Positions 1 to 45,675 of a stretch of DNA of 64,000 nucleotides are shown here, in pieces; within the stretch, counting starts at the first letter, position 1, and every line of letters starts with the position of its first letter. The translations under genes were made by a program, and so were the position numbers. The notes beneath the pieces were generated by a model. It searched no databases, had not been told where the DNA came from, and saw nothing but the letters and a program-made list of their open reading frames with translations. Origin of the DNA: Onthophagus taurus (lineage: Eukaryota; Arthropoda; Insecta; Coleoptera; Scarabaeidae); contig NC_091967.1 of assembly GCF_036711975.1 (NCBI RefSeq), positions 8,432,001 through 8,496,000 of the forward strand, in the 5' to 3' direction.

Positions 1-2119
1 ACAGAAGGATGCTCAGACAGTGTATTCCGATTGTTGGAAGTCAAGACCAAGACTCCACGTGTTCATTTTCAATGACTGCGACATCGGGGAAGAGGAAAAA
101 GATTGAAATGGATGTGTCCGTACAAATTGGACAACATGATACTTCGCTTTCAATAAACGACCTAGTGAAGTTTTCGGGGAACCCCACTGTTTAACCAACT
201 TTAAGAAAGAAGGAGAGCTGTTTCAGTAGTTGCTAATTCAGAGTAACATTGGCAGAAAACTTTAGAGACCACTTATGTTTCTAATTAGGTTAAAACCAGA
301 TTTGAAAATACTTAACATTTCATTTAAAATTTTCGTAATTTCTCGAAGGTGTTAAACTATTTAGCTGTTGGGGTGCTTTGTGCGCGTCACGAGACGTCGA
401 CAACGTCGCCACCGGCTCGACGTTTAGCGTTGTCGTCGTCGTAGGGTACCCGTTAAGCGCTCATAAATCACTCCGAAGTCAAATTTGCGAACGTAATCTC
501 TGCGACCTTTTTAGCCTCCTTCCACCGTTAAACCGTAAATATCGCCACAGCCGCCGCTGCCGCCGTCGCGGAAATTCACGGCAGGAAGGCGAAAAATGGC
601 TAAAATATGGCTCAAAAAGGTTTTCACTTTCAGAAGCTGCTTTTCGAGTTAATTTCCATCCATCTTAACCGAGACTTCCGAAGGCGAAGGGGAAAAGTTA
701 TTGGTTATTTTTAAGCAAATAAGAGGAAAAATTCTTTGTTGGAAAGAAATAAAGATAAAAATGGTATTTTTGTCTTATTTCAAGTAATAAAAATGAATGT
801 ATAAAATATTTTTTGAAAAATAAATTGATTGAAGTTTCTAAATGATCTGATTGAGTGTGTTGGAATAAAAGATTTCTATTAAAAACGTAAATAGAACCAC
901 CTAAATTCTGAGTGGAGTAGGGCCATTTAGGGGTTGAGTTCTTTTTCCGCTTCCGTCGGCGATTCTGCGTCAGCGGCTCTTTCAATTATTTACACGGGGC
1001 GCCCCCTTTTATTTATCAGTCCGTAGCTCGGATCAAGGTCTCATGAATAAAGCAAGACCGGAAGGAATTGAATCGCGCCCGCTCTACCATCTTTTCTAAC
1101 TTCTTCTACAATAAATATCTATCTCCAATTTATCGACAACAATTTTGCTTCCTTTAAAAATACACTATTAATTGACTTTATATCTAATATAAAAAAAATT
1201 TATCTCGAGAAGACATTTTCCAAACCGAAAACTAACATCTGGTGCGAAGACATGCGGTGTCTTGTACAATATATCATGTGCAAATGAACGTGACACCTAC
1301 AGAAGGTTCGTCTCTCTTTGTCGGCATCTGATGCAATCCACACTTGACACCATAACCTAATACAAGCAGACAAGAAAACGAGACAACGAGAGAAGTAGTT
1401 TTAACAAAAAAAAGAAATAAAATGGTTTTAAAAAAACTGTTTTTTGATACTCGATTAATAAAAGCTCTTTCAAGAGATGGATTTTGACCGACATTGGTCG
1501 GATTAAGTTCGGACATTATCCGCAAATAATTGCACTCGAACAAGTAAACCCCTAAAATGGGGTAGATAAGAGGTATCGAGGATAATCGCTTATTGCGTGA
1601 TTATTACCTATCACTTTCCCTTTTCATCTCTATACCCAACCCGAAGGGTCCCTATTCTCCTATACGAACGGGTTTAACATCAGCTTAAGAGCTGTTAAAC
1701 ACCTCTACACCAAAACCAATTTAGATTTTCATTAAAAGCCTCTAAAAATAACTACGTTTAATATTATTTTACAACAAGACAACTGGTTTATTCAAATAAA
1801 GAATAGGATTCAACGAAAGAAAACGGGCGTGTACGGTACGTTTAAAGAAGGCGGTCGATTTAAAAGTCCATCCGACTAATGGAATTTAGGTAAAGGCCAT
1901 CCCGGAAACGTTGAATTAAAGATACGGACGAATGCGCGTTTCTACCATTTTCGGACTTAAATTTATTTATTTCTTAAAGCCCGTTAATCACATTTAACTC
2001 AAAGTCTAAGTTTCTAACGAAGTATAATCTCTACAATGTTATTTGTAACTGACACTAAAACATTTTTTAACATTATAGTGCGAATAGTGCAACAACCTAT
2101 CGCTTAACAACAATTAAAA
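1..2119. other. non-coding sequence, probably intron of the serotonin receptor gene
   Basis: No exon with homology is seen. The receptor exon at 7274 begins in the middle of a conserved region, so its upstream exons must lie to the left; I find none here, so this stretch is probably intron. A locally GC-rich patch (about 370-620) gives a short open frame on the plus strand but has no recognisable protein similarity. Confidence 0.4.
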
Positions 2120-2180
2120 GTAGAGTTAACACTAACACTTGATCTAACACTAGACTTAGAACTAGAATAATTCGGGTTAT
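2120..2180. repeat. half copy of a dispersed palindromic repeat
   Basis: Carries the signature AACACTAG..TTAGAACTAG..ATTCGGGTT found again at about 14478-14542, 27225-27330, 31755-31830 and 31841-31975. Only the left half is present; it runs into a TA-rich stretch. Confidence 0.5.
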
Positions 2181-2209
2181 ATATATATTACATATATATT
2201 AATAAAAAC

Positions 2210-4020
2210 ATATTGAGCAAAAATTAACATTTTTGCATAATCTACGTGTCAAAACAGATGCTAATTCAAAAGTTTCTGGAAGCCGTGTTTACTGAAATTA
2301 AGAAATGAAACTTATTTTAAATTAAAGCTCAATGCTTTCTCTTTAAAATGATGTATAATAATAGTTGGGTTGGATTAGAAAAATATTGAGAAAAAAAATG
2401 TTGAAACAAAACTTACATTTTTGTATAACCTAAAAGTGTCAAAAAAGATGCTAATTTAAAAATTCCTGGAAGCCGTATTTATTGAAATTAAGGAATGAGA
2501 CTTGTTCTAAATTAAAGCTCAATGCTTTCTCTTTAAAATGATGTATAATAATTGTTGGGTTGGATTAGAAAAATATGGAGAAAAAAAATGTTGAAACAAA
2601 ACTTACATTTTCGTATAACCTAAAAGTGTCAAAAAAGATGCTAATTTAAACATTTCTGGAAGCCGTATTTATTGAAATTAAGGAATGAGACTTGTTCTAA
2701 ATTAAAGCTCAAAGCTTTCTCTTTAGAATGATGTATAATAATTGTTGGGTTGGATAAGAAAAATATTGCGAAAAAAAAAATTGAAACAAAACTTACATTT
2801 TCGTATAACCTAAAAGTGTCAAAAAAGATGCTAATTTAAACATTTCTGGAAGCCGTATTTATTGAAATTAAGGAATGAGACTTGTTCTAAATTAAAGCTC
2901 AAAGCTTTCTCTTTAGAATGATGTATAATAATTGTTGGGTTGGATTGGAAAAATATTGAGAAAAAAAATGTTGAAACAAAACTTACATTTTCGTATAACC
3001 TAAAAGTGTCAAAAAAGATGCTAATTTAAAAATTCCTGGAAGTCGTATTTATTGAAATTAAGGAATGAAACTTATTTTAAATTAAAGTTCAAAGCTTTCT
3101 CTTTAAAATGATGTATAATAATTGTTGGGTTGGATTGGAAAAATATTGAGAAAAAAAATGTTGACATAAAACTTACATTTTCGTATAACCTAAAAGTGTC
3201 AAAAAAGATGCTAATTTAAAAATTCCTGGAAGTCGTATTTATTGAAATTAAGGAATTAAACTTATTTTAAATTAAAGTTCAAAGCTTTCTCTTTAAAATG
3301 ATGTATGATAATTGTTGGATTGGATTGGAAAAATTTTGAGAAAAAAAATGTTGAAACAAAACTTACATTTTCGTATAACCTAAAAGTGTCAAAAAAGATG
3401 CTAATTTAAAAATTCCTGGAAGTCGTATTTATTGAAATTAAGGAATGAAACTTATTTTAAATTAAAGTTCAAAGCTTTCTCTTTAAAATGATGTATAATA
3501 ATTGTTGGGTTGGATTGGAAAAATATTGAGAAAAAAAATGTTGACATAAAACTTACATTTTCGTATAACCTAAAAGTGTCAAAAAAGATGCTAATTTAAA
3601 AATTCCTGGAAGTCGTATTTATTGAAATTAAGGAATTAAACTTATTTTAAATTAAAGTTCAAAGCTTTCTCTTTAAAATGATGTATGATAATTGTTGGAT
3701 TGGATTGGAAAAATTTTGAGAAAAAAAATGTTGACATAAAACTTACATTTTCGTATAACCTAAAAATGTCAAAAAATTTCTAATTTAAAAATTCCTGGAA
3801 GCCGTATTTATTGAAATTAAGGAATGAGACTTGTTCTAAATTAAAGCTCAAAGCTTTCTCTTTAGAATGATGTATAATAATTGTTGGGTTGGATTGGAAA
3901 AATATTGAGAAAAAAAATGTCGAAACAAAACTTACATTTTCGTATAACCTAAAAAGTGTCAAAAAAGATGCTAATTTAAAAATTCCTGGAAGCCGTATTT
4001 ATTGAAATTAAGGAAGGAGA
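2210..4020. repeat. 190-bp satellite array, about 9.5 copies
   Basis: The marker CTGGAAG(C/T)CGTATTTATT recurs with its CTGGA ending at 2280, 2470, 2660, 2850, 3040, 3230, 3420, 3610, 3799 and 3990, a period of 190 bp with one 189/191 step. The first copy is the most diverged. Copies at 3041-3420 and 3421-3800 form two nearly identical 380-bp dimers, sharing unit-specific variants (GACATAAA, GTATGATAATTGTTGGAT), so the array has a higher-order level. The array sits inside what looks like a receptor intron. The right edge is abrupt at about 4020. Confidence 0.95.
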
Positions 4021-4400
4021 CTTTCCGAAGTTTTCACATATTTTACTCTTTGCCTCTCTCACTACTTTCTTTTGCTTCGTTCCTGCTATTTATGTAGCTC
4101 TCTTTTCGTCTGAAAATTCCTTTTCAATGACCTTTGTTTTCTTTGGCTTCCTGTTTCACCTCCTCACCACAAAATCATGTTATTTTAAGCCTTAGACTAC
4201 TCTCTTTTTCTCACATAGCTCTGCGGCTACTTTTAGTATTGTATTGTAGTCCATTCTTTCCCTTGTTTTTCCTCCCAATAATTACATGTCTCGATCTCTC
4301 TTTAGCCCTGTCCCATGTTTGTATAAAACGACTCCTTCTGTGTAGTTTCTGCATCCTATATTGGTGCATAGATTTGTATGAGGGTTACCTTCTCCCTCAA
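4020..4400 (-). mobile_element. decayed non-LTR retrotransposon fragment (RTE-like linker region)
   Basis: Read on the minus strand in mixed frames the segment gives peptides such as GEEVKQEAKENK, NEAK and KVVREAKSKICENF. These resemble the linker between endonuclease and reverse transcriptase in RTE-type elements. Stops and frameshifts are present, so it is a relic. It abuts the end of the satellite array. The pyrimidine-rich plus strand to about 4640 may be more of the same element, but I cannot place it. Confidence 0.4.
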
Positions 4401-4640
4401 CACCATATCTAATGAAATTATTCGTGTGTTTATACTTTACCAGTCAGTTATTTGGTAAACTAGCTAATTGCTTATTAGAAAGTTTTACTTTTGTTCCCAG
4501 TGGCGCAGTAAATCAGTTTATATCCTTCGACCTTATATTTATCTTATCATTTCCTCTATCAACTCTACCTCTCTTCCACTCAACCCTCTCGAGTTCTATA
4601 TTTCCACTCTTGTTCGTTGTTCTCGCTTAATAAATTTAAA

Positions 4641-5990
4641 TCTTTTTCCTACTATATCGCTTTTGAGTTATCAAATATAAACATCACAATTATATAACAA
4701 ATATCTAAAGAGAAACTCTATGTTTACACCATATTTAAAATTATTCTGAATTTACCAGTTGAGAGCCTTTCCTAGTTATATTAAACATCTTGTTAGGTAT
4801 GAAGAAGATATTTGGTTAGTTTTGACGTCATAAAAGATAACGAGTGAGGGAGAAAGAGAGGATCGGTTTGAATAAATAGTGATAAATTGGGGTTGGCTGG
4901 TGAAATATTGTAGAGTGGCATGGTTTGCACAAGGATTTCAAGACCGCTCGAGCTCGATCTAATTTCCGGGGGTATTACGTCCTGATAAATTGGCTAGTGT
5001 TTATTCTATAACAGTTTTGCAAATTTATTGTTGGTTCGCTACTATAATTCTCCAGAGATGATTACAGAATCTAATGCAAATTTTGTATTATTTAACATTT
5101 CAAAATTATAACCGAAACATAAAATAAATTGCACAGCTTTTGCTACGTGACTTGTTAAATTCGCGATTTTTCCATTGTAATTTGCAAAACTGTCGTTGAT
5201 CGCTAACGAGACCCAACCCTCTCATTGAAAATACCCCACCGACCCCCACAGTAGGGTTTCCGAATTCATAACCGGATCTCGTTTCAATATTCGCGAACGC
5301 GCGCAAGAGTTACCGAATTACGTTCATGAATAATAATAATAATTCTCAACCCCGTTCGTTTCCGACCACCCTCTTGAGACTTAACAAAAAAGAAACGAAC
5401 CGAACGAAACTTTTCACCCCTACAGTTACGAAAAGTCAAATCACCACCTGCGGCCTCGAAATAATTCGATTTTCAGCTAAACGTCTTCTATTTGAAGTCC
5501 AACCTTCCCCAAAATTTTCTCGCTGTATTTAACGAATCTCCAACCCCCCTCGGAAAAGGGATGGGAAGGAAGAAGTTTGAGGTGAAAGAGAACTGTTTGA
5601 AAAGCTACCGCAATTGTACTCGAGAGGAAAATGGAACCAGAACTCTTAAAGAAGTATAATAATACGATTTTGGCCGCTGGTGTGTTTTCCACCCCTTGTT
5701 TTCTTTGAGAGAAATTCGAAACGAAAACTTTTTAAAAGAAAACAAAAAGGGATTTTGATCTATTTAGATAAAAAAAATTAAAATTAGTTAAGCCGTAAAT
5801 TTTAATAACAACATTTACATTTAAATTACATTTAACGAGAGTTGTTTTATCTAAAACCACCGTCGATTCCCAATTACGTCTGGTTTCGATACGGTTACAC
5901 GAACTGTACAATATGTAAACTCGTTAATTTCAATAATTAAAATGGAAATAATTAAATAATCAACCTAATTTAGCTTACTAATTTTACTCA
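4641..5990. other. non-coding gap
   Basis: No supported exon, RNA gene or repeat. Short open frames on both strands around 5106-5692 overlap each other and have no recognisable protein character. Confidence 0.4.
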
Positions 5991-6115: not shown

Positions 6116-6376
6116 GCGTATAAAAAATAAAATTTCTTTAAAACAAATCTAAATACAGAGTTTAATAGAAATTAACTAAAAATTTTTGTTAAACGTCTAT
6201 CATCATAATCTGATTGTAATTTTATATCTGGTTGTTATGACTACAATTACTGTTAAACATTATAAAATGTCACAGTGTCACAGATTTAAGAATTCTTAAA
6301 TAGGGGAGGGGGAAGAAGGTGTGCTGCGAGAGAGGGCGGGAAATAGATTATTGGGGAAATGCATATTTAGAAAAGT

Positions 6377-6610
6377 TTGTGCAAGCAGAAAATAATGTTT
6401 GATGAATTGGTGAGGAGTGTGATAATGTATGGAAATATGGGGGTGAAAGGAACTCAAGATGGTGGAGAAGATCCAGGAGAGATATTGGAGGTGGGTCTTG
6501 AGGTTGAGCAGGGAGACTCCAGGATGTTTAGTAAGAGAGAAATTGAAGCTGGAGAAGAAGAGAAGAGCGATAAAGTAAGAGGATGGGCTAAAGCAGAAAA
6601 GCGAGCTTAA
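6377..6610 (+). mobile_element. retrotransposon relic, C-terminal region
   Basis: Across two frames the plus strand reads FDELVRSVIMYG, then after a frameshift VEKIQERYWRWVLRLSRETP and LVREKL. This is the conserved region downstream of the reverse transcriptase in a family of insect non-LTR elements (usual form YG.EIWGW..R...RYL.WVLGLD..TP.Y.VREE). At least one frameshift near 6440 breaks it. Confidence 0.6.
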
Positions 6611-6613
6611 GAT

Positions 6614-6662
6614 TATGGGTTGGGTTGGGTTGGGTTGTTTTGGGTTGAATTGGGTTCGGTTC
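6614..6662 (+). repeat. short (TTGGG)n run
   Basis: Four to five exact GGGTT units followed by degenerate units (TTTTGGGTTGAATTGGGTT). It lies exactly between two retroelement relics pointing toward it, so it may be the 3' tail of one of them. Confidence 0.7.
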
Positions 6663-6664
6663 GT

Positions 6665-7125
6665 TCTCTGTGCCGTTCGTTCAATTTGTTCAATATTCCA
6701 GCCTGTGATGATTGCCGCCACGTCATCGGCATAAGCAACCAGCTGTGTTTCTTCTGACTTTCTGACAGATTGCAACAGTTCGTCAAAGAAGATATTCCAC
6801 AATAGTGGTCCCAGAATAGACCTCTGTGGCACTCCCTTGGTAATTTCATATATGTTTCCTTCATACTTCACAAATCTTTTACTCAGATTATCCTTTATTA
6901 AGTTAACTAACTGTACCGATATTCCTATCCTTCCCATAGCTTCCACAATTTTACTCCATGGCGCGGATTCAAAGGCGTTACGGACGTCCAACGTGATAAA
7001 CATATTACAGAGTTTTCTCTTTCCTCTTCTAAACTTGTCTATACATTTAACTTCATCCAAAACCCTCTCAATTGCCTGTACCGTAGATCTATGTCGCATG
7101 AAGCCCCATATTGGTCGTCCCAACT
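6665..7125 (-). mobile_element. reverse transcriptase fragment, R1/jockey-type non-LTR element
   Basis: The minus-strand frame contains consecutive reverse-transcriptase motifs: GFMRHRST.QAI, FITLDVRNAFESAPW, GVPQRSILGPLLWN and the catalytic AYADDVAA box. Order and spacing match R1/jockey-clade polymerases (usual GVPQGSVLGPLLWN; here the glycine after PQ is Arg). Both ends are missing: there is no endonuclease domain upstream, and the frame passes into the (CCCAA)n run downstream. A dead fragment of about 150 residues. Confidence 0.9.
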
Positions 7126-7273
7126 CAATCCTAACTCAACTCCCATCCTCTTTAAAATGTCAAAATAAGATTACAATAGTAAAAAAGTAAATAAGAATGT
7201 ACAAAAATGACTTTTCAAAATTAAATGATCTTTTTAAGCATTATTAATTGATTAAAAATAATTTTAATTTCAG

Positions 7274-8464
7274 ATAAGTAACAATTGGATTATGGGTCCA
7301 GAATTATGTGATATGTGGACTTCAATAGACGTTCTTTGTTGTACAGCTTCCATTCTCCATCTAGTTGCAATAGCAATGGATAGGTAATTAATTATTAAAT
7401 TAATTTAATGTAAAGTTATCTAATTATTTCGATTTAGATATTGGGCTGTAACAAACGTAGTTTATACAAGAAACGGGACAAGAATAGGTGTGATGATAAT
7501 CATGGTATGGAGTGTGGCGTTGGTGGTATCTTTAGCGCCCCAAGTGCCCCAGTTCGGTTGGAAAGATCCCGATTATTTAGTAAGGATAAATAATAATCAA
7601 TGTATGGTCAGTCAAGATATAGGTTATCAAATATTCGCGACGTCATCAACTTTTTACGTCCCACTTTTAGTGATTTTTGTTTTATATTGGAAAATTTTTC
7701 AAACAGCCCGAAAACGAATACGTAAACGGCGAGAAATGAAAAATCAAAATCTCGAATCGTCTATAAACGTTTCAAATAGTACTACGAATAACAACAGCAA
7801 CAGTAGCGGTGGAAAGATTACGAGAAATTTTTTAACGAAACCGAAATTTTTAAAAACAAAGCGTCGTAAAGAAAAGAAGTCGTCAAAAGCGGCTGAGGCT
7901 TTAGTTGCTTCGTTGGTAATGATGGAGGGTCAATCAACGACGACAACAATGGAAACTGTTGATGAACATGATGAGCAACATCGAATTAACGATCAAACAA
8001 CGGTTGAGGAAGAGACAACAGCTTTTACAATTACGACAAACATAAATAGTAAAGAAAAATTTTCGCCGGAAAGATCGACGAATAACGGTCGAAATATTGA
8101 AAAAGAAATTCCCGTTTGTCCAGCATCTGTAGACAAATTAATACCGTCCACGAGAAAAGAAAAAAAGGAAAGTATCGAAGCGAAACGGGAAAGAAAAGCT
8201 GCGAAAACTTTGGCGATTATAACCGGAGCTTTTGTTATGTGTTGGTTACCATTTTTCGTTTTAGCGTTAGCCTCACCAATGTGCGAGGGTTGTATAAATT
8301 CTTATATAATGAGCTTTTTTTTATGGTTAGGTTATTTTAATTCAACGTTAAATCCGGTTATTTATACAATATTTAATCCAGAATTTAGGCAAGCTTTTAA
8401 AAGAATTTTATGTGGTGGCGGTAGATCTAGGTCAAGAAATTTTAGATCAGGCAAAATAAGATAA
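7274..8464 (+). CDS. 5-HT1: 5-HT1-type serotonin receptor (GPCR), last two exons
   Basis: Exons 7274-7383 and 7438-8464 join in phase to give 378 residues from just before TM3 to the C-terminus; TM1-TM2 lie left of the window. Seen: the TM3 aspartate that contacts amines (SIDVLCC), DRYWAVTN at the TM3 end, SLAPQ and FGWKDPDY in loop 2, CMVSQD, a long hydrophilic third loop of roughly 160 residues rich in Asn/Thr/Lys, [16 protein letters not shown] in TM6 and [13 protein letters not shown] in TM7. The loop-2 run and the EAKRERKAA segment match insect 5-HT1 receptors better than octopamine or 5-HT7 receptors. Receptors of this class couple to Gi and lower cAMP in neurons. The intron between the two exons is only 54 bp, while the upstream intron is at least 7.2 kb. 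Confidence 0.9.
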
Positions 8465-8506
8465 AATTAATTTTCAAAAAATATCATCTTGAATAAAAAT
8501 TAGTAG

Positions 8507-8707
8507 TACAGTAAAACTTCGATATAACAGACAAAATATGCTTAAGTCATTACTATTAATATTACTGGTATAAAAATTGATTATCTTTCTAATTATTGAT
8601 CAAATCAAAATTATTTTCAAATAAAATTTGCTTAAAATTGTGAAGGTAATAACTTTTATTAATGAATTAATTAAAGTTTTGAGCTTCTGTATGGAAGTTT
8701 TACTGTA
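8507..8707. mobile_element. pogo/Tigger-like MITE downstream of the receptor
   Basis: Termini TA-CAGTAAAACTTCGATATAA at the left and TATGGAAGTTTTACTG-TA at the right, giving about 197 bp between TA duplications. The CAGTAAAAC(C/T)TCGATATAAC end recurs near 32035-32059. It lies about 45 bp past the receptor stop codon and so probably within its 3' untranslated region. Confidence 0.65.
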
Positions 8708-8837
8708 TTTAAATAAATAAAATTAAATACAAGGATATTCAAGGTGATTATAAATGATAATAAACTAATTCCATTAAAAAAAAGTGTAAATACATTTTGT
8801 AATTATTGTATTAATTCGAAATTATTTTTTTATGATA

Positions 8838-38933: not shown

Positions 38934-41900
38934 TTAACGACGCTTGGATACTTGGGACCATCCGTCTTCAGATTCGGGCATTGGCTCATGTTCTATATAA
39001 TTTATCACGAATAAACACAACAAAAAAGATTAATTAAAAAAAAAATAACAAAATTATTATTATTATGGTTATACAGTTAAGTAATTGTAAACGTATTCAA
39101 GAAAAAAAATTACTTACGTTTATTATCACTATTACGAGTCGGTCCTGATTTTCGATCTCTATCTCTATCACGATCTCCTCCTCTCGTGGCTTTATCATCC
39201 TTTCTTAAATCTTTACCACCTCCACTTCTCCAATCATTACCACCTCTAGAAGAACGATCACGATCGCGATCACCACCCGGCGCAGGACGTCTAGAATCAT
39301 CATCAGCTTTAGATCTCCATGATGAGCCTCTATCATCACGGCGATCACGATCATCCCTTCTATCTCTATCATCACGGCGATCATCTCTTCTATCTCGGTC
39401 ACGATCATCGCGACGATCTCGATCATCTCTTCTATTATCCCTATCTCTGTCATCGCGGCGATCTCGATCATCCCTTCTATCATCACGGCGATCGCGATCA
39501 TCTCTTCTATCATCACGGCGATCTCGATCATCTCTTCTATCATCCCGACGGTCTCGATCATCCCTCCTGTCATCGCGCCGATCGCGATCATCTCTCCTAT
39601 CATCACGATCTCTATCGTCTCTTCTCTCATAGCCACCGCGATCGTCACCACGACGACGATCGTCATAACGATCATCTCCGCGACGGTCCATTTCTCGGGA
39701 ATCTCCGGAACGAGGAGCCGAACGCCAACCACCACCTCCACCACCACCGGCAGATGGTTCTGATGGTCGATGATCTGATGATGATGATTCTAATGGTTTT
39801 GAATCAGATGAACGTTCAGCTTCACGCACGCGAGCTAAAAATTAAACGTTTGTATTATTGACAACATTTTAAATGAAAAAACTTACAAGATCTCCACGCA
39901 GTAGGTTTTTTAACCTCCTCCGTTCTTTCCCCACGTTCTCCTCCACGTCTCCAAGGATCGTCTCCCCCAAATTTCTTATCTCTTTCTCCACCACCACTAC
40001 CTCCTCCTCTTCTCCAAATTTGAGATCCTCCATCTTCATTCGATTTCATGCTTGCTTCCTTTTCCTCTTGCAACTTCCTTTCAATCTCCTCCTCTCTCTG
40101 CCTTTTTTTAGCGGCCGATCGTTCCAACATTTCTTCTTTTTCCCTCATCGCCCTTTCTTTCTCCTCCCGGTCTATACGTTCCTTTTCTTCGCGTTCCTTT
40201 CTCGCGATTTCTTCCAACCTAGCTTTTTCCTCTTCTTCTTTCCGCCGTTGTTCCGCTCGTTTACGTTCCTCTTCCTCCTCCTTTTCTTTTAGATATTTCG
40301 CGCGACGTTCTTGTTTGCGTTGTTCCTTGCGTTGATCGAGACGTTTTTTACGTTCATCGGCTAAGATTCGTTCGAAATCTTTTAATTTATCCTCGTAAAC
40401 GACGTTTCGTTCTTTCATTAATTTCTCGAGGAAAGCTGCTTTGTCGGCTTTCATGCGACCGAGACGTTCTTGGGTGGTTTCGGCAAGTTTTCTTTCTTCA
40501 ATTTCAGCGTTGATTCGTTCCTCTTCTTGTTGCTCCCAAAACGCTTGGTCTTGTAATTGACGCTCTTTCATGTTTGCTTGTAGTAGTGGGATTTCTTCTA
40601 AGCGTTTCGCGCGTTCGAAGTAATCAACTTTCTTTTCTTGTGATTTAAGTTTTGCTTGTAGTTCGCGACGTTCTTTTTGTAATTCTTCGGCTTCACGAGC
40701 TGCGATTTGGTCGGCGTCCATTTTTTTGATATCATCCTCGTCGAGTTTTTTTAAAATCTTTTGACCGTGACTCGTTTGCGAGATTTGTTGCATTTTCTCT
40801 TTTAAATGTCGATCTTTGATTTGTTGGATTTCGTTTAAGGCTCGTTTACGTTCGCGTTCTTCGCGCTCTTGTTCCAAACGTTTCTGTTCGGCCAAAGCCT
40901 GTTGGCGAGCCATTTCTTCGAGGCGACGTTGTTCTTCTTCTTCACGAACGGTGTTTAATCGCTCAATATATTCTTTGCGATCTTCGATGATCCGGCGACG
41001 TTGCAATATTCTTTGATGTTCTCGGACTTTAGTTTCGTGATAATTCGCGACCATTGCGGCTCGCATCTTTTCGCGCTCGCTCTTCTTTTTATTCGGATTG
41101 ATTACATTAACGGCTCGATGGAGAACAGTTGCCATACTGACTAGTTGATTGCGAATTTGCTCGCTGGGCATACTTTGCAAAGTTGGCCCTTCGGGGTTGT
41201 CTTCCCTTTGACTTTCCGATAAATCGATTCCGAAATGAACGCAATATTTCTTGTGGTCAATACGGATTTGCATATCATTATGGCGGACGCAATCAACTAA
41301 TAAACGCTCCATATGAAACGGAGTCGTAAATTGGGCGAGTTCGATTAATCGGGAGAACTCGATGGTTTGATAAACCTGGGCTATTTGCCTGATTAATCTT
41401 ACCAAGGTTACATCTTGTAAAGCAGGCACGTATTGTGCTAATGGTGAATTTTCTTCTTTTTGTTGTAATATTTCAATGACGGATTTAACGCGGAAACACA
41501 AACATAATGGATGGAACTCAACTTCAAGCCAATTATACAGATCTTGAAGTTGGGGGGTGGCTAAATTCACAACATTAGCTTTTACAATATCTTTTAAAAG
41601 AGAGGCTCGGGTTGGTGGTTGGAATAAACCTAATAAAACAGCGAGTCTTTGTGCTTTCTCCAACGGAGATTTATCGGTTTCAATGAAACGATCAAATTCT
41701 GGGTGAGCTGACGGAAGCGGAATTGCTAAAGTTGCAATTAAAACGGTACACGCCATTCTAAAATTAAAAAAAATAAATAAAATTAATAAATTCTTTAAAC
41801 TTAATTAACCCTCTGTTAGGCGCGCATATATCTTTACAATACTAAAGTCCCTAGATTATCAAAGTACGAAATATCGAGCCAAAATGGCGGTTTGACAGCT

Positions 41901-44900
41901 TATAAGTGCATGTTACCACTTATTTCCAAAAATAATGCCGTCTTGTTGCCTTTGGAGTTGCAAAAATAGCAGTAAGATGGGCTTTCGACTCTTCGGAGTA
42001 CCACGAGAAAAAAAAAGAAAGGAAATTTACCGTAATTTTATCAACAGAACGACGTAGTTTTAAATTTCCCGCTTGACTTTCGAGCCAAAATGGCGGCAAA
42101 CAGCGGTACTTTGATAATCTAGGGACTTTATACAATACGTATGTACAGGGTGGTTCAAATTCGATGTCCAAATAGGCTAACTCGGAAACTATAAGACTTA
42201 GAAAAAAAGTTTACATGTCATGATCTCGTTTCTCGAGAAACTGCTAATGCCGAAAACCTGAAACTGCTATCGTCTTTTGTCTTTCCCCTAAAGGCCAAAA
42301 TCTTATTATAGTTATTATTATAGGTGGAGTATTATAACTAAGACATTATATGGACACTTTTTTTACAGAGAATTTCATGACGTAGTCAAAAAAAATGTTT
42401 AGAGTTTAGATTTTGAGATATCATATAGATATCATAACAAAATTACGGCTTGGCGTGTGCCACACAAACAGTAATTGTATCCATACCACTTGATGCTGCG
42501 TGTTTAAAAAAAAATTTTTATTGATGACCATTAATTTGAGTTATTGCTTTACTTACGATTAATTTCGACAGATGATGCGACAGTATTTCGTGGACGAGGT
42601 TATATCTTTTTGTGAATAACTCTAAAACGATGCGTCTAATCAAAAATTTCCAAGAGTGAAAATAATTTTAAAATGAAATAGGCTTTTAGAATCAGTTGGA
42701 ATTTTAAGGGCTGACGACATAATAAAAAAGTTTTAAGGAAATAACCTTTGTGGACACCTGTATAGCATTGATCCCATGGTTGCATACTTTCAAAAGTGAT
42801 CTCAAACGATTTCTCATCATAACATTGCATTGTTTGCCAAATTTTATCTTTCTAAGACAAACCATATTGAAAATAAAGAATTATATTCGAAACTAGCTTT
42901 TAATATTTAGAAGAAATAATATAAAAGTTTTTTTGTACTTTAATTAGATAATAAACCTGAGTTTTACTAGTTTCAGCTACAAGCCATCTTCAGAGACTAG
43001 TTTTTGAACACAATTATAGATTAAAATATCAAATATAAATTTTTTAAATTTAAAGCGTTCTCTAAAAAACTAGTCTTTGAAGATGGCTTGTAGCCGAAAC
43101 TTGTAAGACTCAGGTTTATTATCTAATTAAAGACCAGTTTAAAAGTACAAAAAAAACTTTTATGTTATTTCTCCTACATATTGAAAATATTTAAGAAAAT
43201 GTTTTAACTTTGGAGGTCCATATCTTAAGTATTTGTGGGTTTAGACCAAAAATTTTTTCACAAATTGTCATTATTTTAACTCTAGTAATTGTGATTAAAA
43301 TTATACCACAACTTACAGAAACACCCTGTATAAAATTAATTTATTGACAAATATTTATTACCTTGATATAAATCTTAAGCATACAAATATAATTTGTTTA
43401 CAAGATTTTTTTTGTTTTTGCAGAATTATTATTACAATATTGCAATAATGACAATCATCTTTTACCTGTCTGTTTTTAGAATTGTTTTTATTCATAAATT
43501 TGTCTGATCTTGTTAGGTTGAGTGTGACCTCAAGAACAGGTCAACTCCTATTCTTTATATTTACAAACATTTTATTCAGTACCAAGAATTTCTGTTTTTA
43601 AATAAATCCCAAATATACCTCTAATTGTGCCAGACATCCCAATTTGCGCCAAACTTGTTTTCATAAAATATAAACAAAGTTTCTCACTCTTTTGTAATTA
43701 TTTGGAGAGATATAAATTTGGCAAGGACAAATATAGTCCTTAGTATTGTTAAGAAAATCTTGAAAACAAATTATATTTGTATGTTTAAGATTTACATCAA
43801 GGTAAAAAAATATGTATCTATATTAATCTCTTAATCTTTATCCATTATAAATCTCTTAAACGCGCCTAACAGAGGGTTAATGAATATAATAGAATTACCG
43901 TTGTAATTCTTCTTGTGTAATATTTTTCTTCATTTCTTTCGACAATTGGAATAACTTAAACAATGCAGCTGCATGGAATAAATAATTCCCAGCTTTCCAG
44001 AAAACCATTGCTAATTTTTGATAATAATTAGCCATCGTTTTTGGCACAGGCATCTTCTTGGACATGTTCATTAACCCATGAATATCTTCAATAGCTTTAT
44101 AAGCTTCCTAAATTAAAATAAATATTAATCTCATTTCGTTAATTCCAATTTAATTATTTACCTGCCACAGTTCCATTTGAATTGCAGATTCTAATTGATA
44201 AAGTCTCGTTTCTAAATTAAGTTGTTGCGTTTCTGGTTTAGACATAGAAACGTTAGCAACTTGAGCAGGAAGCTTGCAGATGTCTTCGAGGTGCTTGCGA
44301 AGCTTGTCGCATAATTTACGAAATTCTGTTTTACGATTATATTTGAGGCAAAATTGGAAGGCCATGCGGGCTATGTCGTGATATAAAGTTTCAACATGGG
44401 CGTTTGTACGTAACAATTCCAGGCACTGACAGTAAGATTCCCATAAAAATTTTACCCAAGGTGTTAAGATTGTACGATCTGAACGATCTTGAGCATCCTC
44501 CCCAGACACAGCACTCAATAATATACTTTCCGGAGTAGCTACATTATCTAAATCATCTATATCAACCACCGCTTGGGCAGATTGCTCACGGGCATTTTCA
44601 GTTTTTTCCTCAGCCATCCTCAAATATCCTCTGATTACATTTTCTAAAGATCCAACATTCACAGATTGAAACATATTTCTGTATTGAAACAGCCCCTCCT
44701 TTGCAATATGGGATTTTTTGAGTTCGACACACAAATCCAAGTACTTGAACATGATGGGTTCCAAAACAGATTCCGACCAATTGTAAGCCCATTTTTTATT
44801 CCGGAAAACTTCCTGGAGCGTATCAAGGGCCCGGGTTGGTTTCCCAACTTCGATGAATTCTACACGAATCGGTAAAAAGGACGAGCGTAAATGAAAACGT

Positions 44901-44984
44901 GGTTTGGCATATGCTGAGAGTGAGGTTAGACTTACCATTGGCCCTTTTAAGAGCGTTTTCTGGTCGCTGACCGTATCTAGCCAT
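38934..44984 (-). CDS. eIF3a: translation initiation factor eIF3 subunit A
   Basis: Six exons (44936-44984, 44162-44859, 43899-44107, 39887-41757, 39118-39834, 38934-38992) join in phase to 1200 residues. Start [32 protein letters not shown] is the conserved N-terminus; an upstream in-frame-looking ATG at 45101 belongs to another frame and reads through the intron-1 donor. Residues 1-500 carry the helical repeats and PCI domain ([38 protein letters not shown]), 530-930 a long charged coiled coil, 990-1115 an Arg/Asp repeat (DRRDDR units), and a short last exon ends in [11 protein letters not shown]. eIF3a is the scaffold of eIF3, which binds the 40S subunit and recruits mRNA. The last exon is easily missed because CGT AAG TAA follows in frame at the exon 5 donor. 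Intron 3 holds nested transposons. Confidence 0.95.
41843..42130. mobile_element. P-type short element with 8-bp target duplication
   Basis: 288 bp, flanked by the exact 8-bp direct repeat TACAATAC (41835-41842 and 42131-42138). Perfect 25-bp inverted ends begin TAAAGTCCCTAGATTATC. Two subterminal direct repeats CGAGCCAAAATGGCGG (about 41876 and 42081). An 8-bp duplication is the P-superfamily signature, and the interior encodes a THAP-like start. Confidence 0.9.
41935..42057 (+). CDS. truncated THAP zinc-finger reading frame inside the P-type element
   Basis: ATG 41935 gives 40 codons starting MPSCCLWSC, then [14 protein letters not shown] and YRNFI, ending at TAG 42055. The spacing of M-P-x-C..C, the FRLF..P block and basic residues matches the first half of a THAP domain, the DNA-binding module of P transposases (usual C-x2-4-C ... 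F..FP). The second zinc pair and the AVPTIF-type end are missing, so it is probably not a working finger; it identifies the parent transposon. Confidence 0.6.
   Translation: MPSCCLWSCKNSSKMGFRLFGVPREKKRKEIYRNFINRTT
42925..43165. repeat. foldback with about 100-bp arms
   Basis: TTTGTACTTTAATTAGATAA TAAACCTGAG...CTACAAGCCATCTTC is followed by the complement GAAGATGGCTTGTAG...CTCAGGTTTATTATC TAATTAAA...AAGTACAAA. Part of the nested material in eIF3a intron 3. Confidence 0.8.
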
Positions 44985-45675
44985 AATCGGGAATCACCAC
45001 GGGGCCACTTTTCACATTTAACGGTCGTAAATATTGGGATTTCTTCGAGTATTCGCCTTAGAAACTGCGAATGACACTCGGAAGCAGAAAATAATTGCGG
45101 CAAAATGGCGGATGCAATTGATTAACATAAAATAATAAAAATCCCTGTTATTTACTTCTAAATTAATCAAAATTTTAATTTAAATTCGTTATTAAATTTA
45201 CCAATTTAATTTTGTTAATAGTATGGGATATTACTTAAATGTTTTTAAATAACACTATTCAAAATTAAACCCAATAATCCATGAGTACGTAGTGCCATCT
45301 CTTATTGAATAGATGAACTAAAAATCATTTAAACAATTTACCTGTCAAATGAGTTTAAATTATTTTTTAATTAATATATTATTATTTTAATTAGTATATT
45401 TTCTGTAATAACTTAATAATTATAAAAAGGTAAATAAAAAAGTTGTATCTTTTAAATGAATATTTATTTAAATTTTGAAAGTATATAAAAAAAATCATGA
45501 TTCATTAACCCTCCTTATAAAACTTCCTAATAAAAAATAAGCACAGCTTTTTATAAAGAATTACTAGGTAAGTATTATTTTTCAACAAAATTAAATTCTG
45601 GACAATAATAATAAAAAAAATATACAAAATAACAAATCTACATTACAAAAATACTTCTCTACAATCTTAAAAAAT
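44985..45675. other. eIF3a promoter region and spacer
   Basis: AAAATGGCGG at 45102-45111, about 120 bp upstream of the eIF3a start, is a YY1/Pho-type word common in housekeeping promoters. The rest, down to the 3' end of the MICAL-like gene, is AT-rich; the word AGTGCCATCT at 45291 is a weak relative of the CTCF core. No gene. Confidence 0.45.

Follow-up and report, generated by a model that had tools for sequence, protein, structure and literature searches.

A short Onthophagus taurus repeat, probably a P-superfamily MITE, retains the start of a THAP domain and occurs in head-to-tail arrays

This work concerns a 288-bp element in a 64,000-nucleotide stretch of the genome of the beetle Onthophagus taurus (contig NC_091967.1, positions 8,432,001 to 8,496,000; G000:C2:8432001-8496000 in our numbering), hereafter called the window, which is part of a 290.8-Mb assembly in 33 contigs. 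The element is most probably a non-autonomous miniature inverted-repeat transposable element (MITE) of the P superfamily, one that carries half of a THAP reading frame passively and whose relatives form arrays, apparently through reinsertion and local duplication. No master copy turned up among the listed ends and matches, and the assignment to the P superfamily rests on the THAP start, the 8-bp target duplication and the anatomy of the ends.

Results

Structure of the element and of its family

The first-pass annotation of the window had described a 288-bp element (41843-42130) that is flanked by an exact 8-bp target duplication, whose inverted ends agree perfectly over 25 bp and which holds a frame of 40 codons; all of this was confirmed. 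The flanking octamer, TACAATAC, is identical on both sides, the ends pair perfectly over 25 bp and are mismatched beyond, and the frame (41935-42054, stop codon at 42055-42057) starts 93 bp inside the left end. The parts of the window copy are as follows.

41835..42138, outer limits including both target-site duplications:
41835..41842, no strand: left target-site duplication TACAATAC, exact match to 42131-42138
41843..41867, plus strand: left terminal inverted repeat, 25 bp remaining of the family's usual 32 (end comparison)
41876..41890, plus strand: left copy of the subterminal 15-bp repeat GAGCCAAAATGGCGG, 34-48 bp from the end; candidate site for transposase binding, judged solely by position
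41935..42057, plus strand: 40-codon frame and stop, relic N-terminal half of a THAP zinc finger (Pfam match, profile 1-40 of 87)
42082..42096, plus strand: right copy of the subterminal 15-bp repeat, same orientation, 35-49 bp from the right end (repeat search)
42106..42130, minus strand: right terminal inverted repeat, 25 bp, perfect (end comparison)
42131..42138, no strand: right target-site duplication TACAATAC, exact match to the left copy

Searching the genome with the 25-bp ends and with the element, as the first-pass annotation had proposed, revealed many copies. The end pattern (up to 3 mismatches) gave 225 plus 227 matches, 452 in all, against none for a reversed-pattern control; the whole element gave 81 matching stretches, some of them ends only (best 40 of 305 candidates scored). 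A 37-base left-end pattern matched 181 times; the two sequence variants of a 51-base right-end pattern matched 144 and 93 times, with lists that overlap. The inverted repeat typical of the family measures 32 bp, TAAAGTCCCTAGATTTACAAAGTACCGCGGTT being common to 5′-type and 3′-type ends, and its terminal bases are TAAAGTCC. In the window copy a deletion reduced it to the annotated 25 bp. Alignment to copies such as L003 shows that the window copy is without 25 bp just inside its left end, and a pattern spanning the deletion junction (up to 3 mismatches) has a single match in the genome, the window copy itself. This private deletion accounts both for the shortening of the ends to 25 bp and for the position of the left 15-bp repeat at 34-48 bp.

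Across lengths from 5 to 11 bp, ten of 19 isolated two-ended copies have an exact target duplication at 8 bp alone, and three more have an 8-bp duplication with one mismatch; the P-like duplication reported for the window copy is thus a recurrent property of the family. Pairing of left and right ends (100 of the 181 left ends and 135 right ends listed) yielded 54 pairs, 48 of which span 158-304 bp. The window copy had been taken for an unusual state; that it is a rare, isolated one is not supported, short forms being what turned up of the family in this pairing. The family has the marks of a MITE, as it is short, has many two-ended copies and no intact transposase, and its 32-bp inverted repeats and 8-bp duplications agree with the terminal repeats of about 31 bp and the 8-bp target duplications of the P superfamily.

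Two variants deserve mention. A 182-bp derivative (L047, 6958-7139) has no THAP frame and is flanked by the exact 8-bp duplication CATCGATA. A 2.1-kb composite lying between family ends (L040, 157-2290; duplication GGTTGCTC) has no match to the THAP frame either; its inner repeats are also found in L050.

In 37 of 39 distinct oriented units the 15-bp repeat GAGCCAAAATGGCGG (up to 3 mismatches) occurs close to each end; its right copy lies 34/35-49 bp from the terminus, and its left copy lies 49-63 bp from the terminus in 24 of the 39. According to the excerpts available of the papers cited here and below, the P element has inverted repeats of 31 bp (PMC7776569) and THAP-bound sites 53-63 and 41-51 bp from its two ends (PMC3688188), the two papers giving the 5′ and 3′ spacings in opposite order. 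Judged by sequence, the 32-bp ends and unequally spaced subterminal repeats of the beetle family follow this layout. In the P element and Galileo the THAP recognition site is located tens of bases inside the terminal repeat, and in the P element the sites are also unequally spaced at the two ends (PMC7776569, PMC3688188); the 15-mer of the beetle family is comparable in position and spacing and, on that ground only, a candidate for such a transposase-binding site. The very long inverted repeats of Galileo are unlike those of the Onthophagus family.

The frame corresponds to the first half of a THAP domain

The peptide encoded by the window copy matches the Pfam THAP profile with 17.1 bits (E 0.0098), and that of another copy with 16.8 bits. 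Of the family peptides, the eight whose frame is intact all hit THAP with an E-value of 1 or less, the best reaching 2.4e-4; their majority peptide scores 23.2 bits (E 1.2e-4) and covers positions 1-40 of the 87 in the profile. The reverse and six shuffles of the majority peptide gave no THAP match, one shuffle matching NifQ (E 0.16). Together, matches and controls indicate that the frame encodes the N-terminal half of a THAP domain, bearing out the THAP-domain start that had been proposed from the window copy; PDB searches returned nothing useful. The THAP start of a P-superfamily transposase is thus found near the left end, as a half domain only. In the column majority of 75 distinct copies the frame starts 108 bp from the left end, and the codon at that place is TTG.

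P-type transposases in the genome and the assignment of the family

P-type transposases proved plentiful, with at least 150 RNase H matches (best 150 of 341 candidates scored) and open frames of up to 855 codons. Four of them, L052-L055 (C1:1903804, C2:7756764, C2:29982650 and C10:1925196), are 98.9-100% identical over 3.4 kb, which suggests recent activity or recent duplication. L059 and L060 (C15:1833922 and C15:1830101) are identical over 3,405 bp and lie in inverted arrangement. L062, L063 and L071 make up one P family, whose end is apparently CAGGGGAGTGAAACTAG, judged by where the copies cease matching; in L062/L063 its open frame runs to 855 codons.

A number of observations weigh against placing the element in the P superfamily. 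None of the 100 listed left ends (of 181) is within 10 kb of the 150 listed transposase matches, and the two of 135 listed right ends that do lie near such matches, at 0.7 and 7.3 kb, each point away from them. In the peptide search, in which the best 150 of 322 candidates were scored, no match extends beyond residue 43 with its frame still open. No copy joining family ends to a P-type catalytic domain, an RNase H with a GTP-binding insertion, is present among the ends and matches listed, pairs of 1,742 and 4,141 bp not having been read; the longer, THAP transposase-bearing copy that the first-pass annotation had envisaged did not appear there, while the THAP start and the 8-bp duplications do fit P. 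Six of the 19 isolated two-ended copies have no recognisable target duplication, nor does copy L082, the neighbour of a divergent P-type transposase. Most single peptides fall short of the Pfam whole-domain cut-off for THAP (23.9), and the majority peptide, at 23.2, is also under it, as expected where only half a domain is present. The terminal bases of the MITE, TAAAGTCC, are unlike CAGGGGAGTGAAACTAG, the end inferred for one P family of this genome. Finally, THAP domains also occur in other superfamilies, such as Kolobok, and 8-bp duplications are also made by hAT and other elements.

These facts could be accommodated if the family were a MITE of another superfamily with 8-bp duplications, hAT for example, into which part of a THAP gene had been taken up by chance. 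We consider this improbable: although the listed matches include no transposase-bearing copy tying the ends to P, the terminal bases differ from those of the one P family and 8-bp duplications are common to hAT, the THAP frame is in sense orientation and opens 93 bp inside the left end in the window copy and 108 bp inside it in the majority, a place that would suit the start of a P transposase, the arrangement of 32-bp ends and unequally spaced subterminal repeats has the P layout, and P-type transposases abound in the genome. The hAT transposase carries a BED finger; the THAP match alone counts against hAT membership, no search for hAT transposases having been made. Membership in the P superfamily is accordingly the reading we retain.

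The search for a master included the surroundings of P-type transposases and the inside of long end pairs. Thirty loci around P-type RNase H matches (1.5 kb each way) contain no family end at up to 5 mismatches. The divergent P-type transposase at C7:3486207 was rejected as a master since L082, beside it, has both of its own ends and faces the other way. Longer end pairs in the loci read were likewise rejected, as other repeats lie inside them, copia-like in L041 and with reverse-transcriptase-like and mariner-like frames in L048 (labels given from the frames, not by family search). Six pairs exceed 340 bp, namely the arrays L039, L048 and L049, the composite L050 and the two unread pairs, both on C3. 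Of the latter, C3:3103568-3105309 (1,742 bp) has a family peptide match near its right end, and C3:29778248-29782388 (4,141 bp) has no P RNase H, THAP or P transposase among the matches listed.

A genome search for THAP gave at least 133 matches. Two THAP exons (profile 24-87, 92-codon frames), at G000:C3:3105485-3105670 and G000:C1:33805783-33805968, are located outside family ends, at distances of about 0.2 and 0.5 kb. In a post hoc comparison of the 133 THAP matches with a hand-thinned set of 164 listed end places, 2 of 500 random shifts likewise reached two pairs of this kind within 1 kb. These exons are possibly remnants of the master of the MITE family, or simply neighbours.

The half-THAP frame behaves as a passenger

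Coding capacity was assessed in the 67 copies, of the 75 distinct ones, that cover the frame. The start codon is ATG in 30 and TTG in 35, and 33 copies are shifted relative to the frame of the window copy. Relative to the column majority there are 426 non-synonymous and 125 synonymous changes, a count that is not tree-based and in which shared changes enter more than once; the observed non-synonymous share is 77.3%, against 75.4% expected under neutrality (ratio 1.11, p 0.30). Of all changes, 6.5% are stops, close to the 5.5% expected. The half-THAP frame looks like a passenger or relic, not a gene.

The first-pass annotation had suggested that the half finger could act as a small peptide, and one could think of a maintained product such as a small repressor of P transposition like the KP protein. 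Eight of the 67 copies, the window copy among them, do keep ATG and 38 or more codons; nonetheless, substitutions that fit neutrality, stops near the neutral rate, the replacement of ATG by TTG and the frame shifts in about half of the copies, and the presence of only half of a zinc finger make such a function extremely improbable, and for the family as a whole it is largely refuted.

Head-to-tail arrays

At several loci, family copies follow one another head to tail, up to nine units in a row. Two of these arrays are delimited as follows.

L049 (G000:C7:1650000-1657000), 2058-4809: array with single 8-bp target sites between units
L048 (G000:C10:10901600-10911500), 6270-8729: array with single 8-bp target sites between units

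In the loci examined, the distance from a right end to the left end that follows is exactly 8 bp at 16 of 17 distinct junctions. The junction octamer is the local target, namely ATTTATCC in L039, GGTTGAGA (with a few variants) in L048 and ATGCTCTT in L049. L048 and L049 each contain a single junction whose octamer is inverted to the reverse complement, between units that face the same way. The four units of L039 are 95-98% alike. In L049, the seven inner units are 96-100% alike, whereas the first and the last unit each resemble the rest of the array at 89-94%; compared with the L039 units these two score 92% and 87-88%, scarcely lower than within L049. Seven of the nine L048 units were compared and are 84-95% alike. 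A further array, known by coordinates only (C7:40050515-40052370), has seven right ends 300-301 bp apart.

The high identity of the L039 units and of the inner L049 units implies that local amplification occurred. It is unlikely, however, that unequal crossing-over or rolling-circle amplification made the arrays by itself, with no repeated insertion. Such a process would account for the near-identical units of these two loci but not for the outer units of L049, which are scarcely closer to the rest of their array than to L039, nor for the divergence among the L048 units compared; it also leaves aside that the junction octamer varies from array to array and equals the local duplication, and that L048 and L049 each have one inverted octamer between units of the same orientation. 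Taken together, unit identities and junction octamers suggest that repeated insertion and local duplication have both acted. Somewhat more speculatively, it is possible, though we would not call it likely, that the P-type transposase of this lineage re-targets the 8-bp duplication beside its own short elements with sufficient frequency to build satellite-like arrays unit by unit, and that it moves neighbouring units as blocks. If so, block moves would flip the octamer between units, and the junction octamers would record the order and orientation of each event.

Location of the window copy

Two frames on either side of the window copy are read as exons of eIF3a, with exon limits that are inferred.

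39855..41756, minus strand: frame interpreted as the downstream exon of eIF3a, the host gene (Pfam PCI, E 2.5e-10)
44150..45103, minus strand: frame read as an upstream exon of eIF3a (eIF3a_PCI_TPR-like, E 3.1e-83)

The element thus appears to sit in an intron of eIF3a, between these two frames.

Discussion

The history of the family may be pictured as follows. An ancestral P-type transposon would have undergone an internal deletion that kept both ends, with their 32-bp inverted repeats and subterminal repeats; the first 40 THAP codons would have been retained because the start codon of the transposase is only about 100 bp from the left end. A P-type transposase acting in trans presumably spread the short form, duplicating 8 bp at each insertion, and the half-THAP frame, lying within the left end that was kept, would have been carried along and have degenerated neutrally. 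The window copy would have inserted in the eIF3a intron and acquired its private 25-bp deletion. Elsewhere, further copies probably inserted into the duplicated 8-bp target of existing ones, giving rise to head-to-tail arrays, some of which may later have been enlarged by local duplication.

Elements of this kind have precedents, described here as far as the available excerpts of the sources go. The P-MITEs of Anopheles gambiae (5 to 310 copies, 205-2450 bp, masters with inverted repeats of 27-31 bp) are likewise short, with 5′ and 3′ P ends and 8-bp duplications (PMC1562414); their centre is unrelated to P and their masters are known, whereas the Onthophagus family has 40 THAP codons in its left part and no master was found for it. 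Har-P of Drosophila melanogaster is also an internally deleted P element with both ends, mobilised in trans (PMC6917496). It measures about 630 bp, some 130 bp coming from the 5′ terminus and 500 bp from the 3′ terminus, and has a known master, unlike the Onthophagus family, which is about 300 bp long, yielded no master among the matches listed and consists of mutually diverged copies. Multiple insertion into one duplicated target is known to produce tandem copies, up to 16 in the case of hobo (McGurk and Barbash 2018, as described in PMC12628747); the arrays reported here differ from tandem hobo in consisting of a P-type MITE and in having one inverted octamer in each of two arrays.

P-MITEs and tandem copies of this sort are therefore already described, and it is the family itself that is newly characterised: no paper naming it or carrying its end sequence was found, within a partial coverage of the literature. 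As a transposon it is rather ordinary, the points of mild note being the retained THAP start and the array junctions. The analysis ties a short repeat to the P superfamily from its own sequence and indicates that its half-THAP frame is a passenger, not a gene. The arrays, with their locus-specific 8-bp junctions, offer a well-marked case for how a DNA transposon becomes a tandem array.

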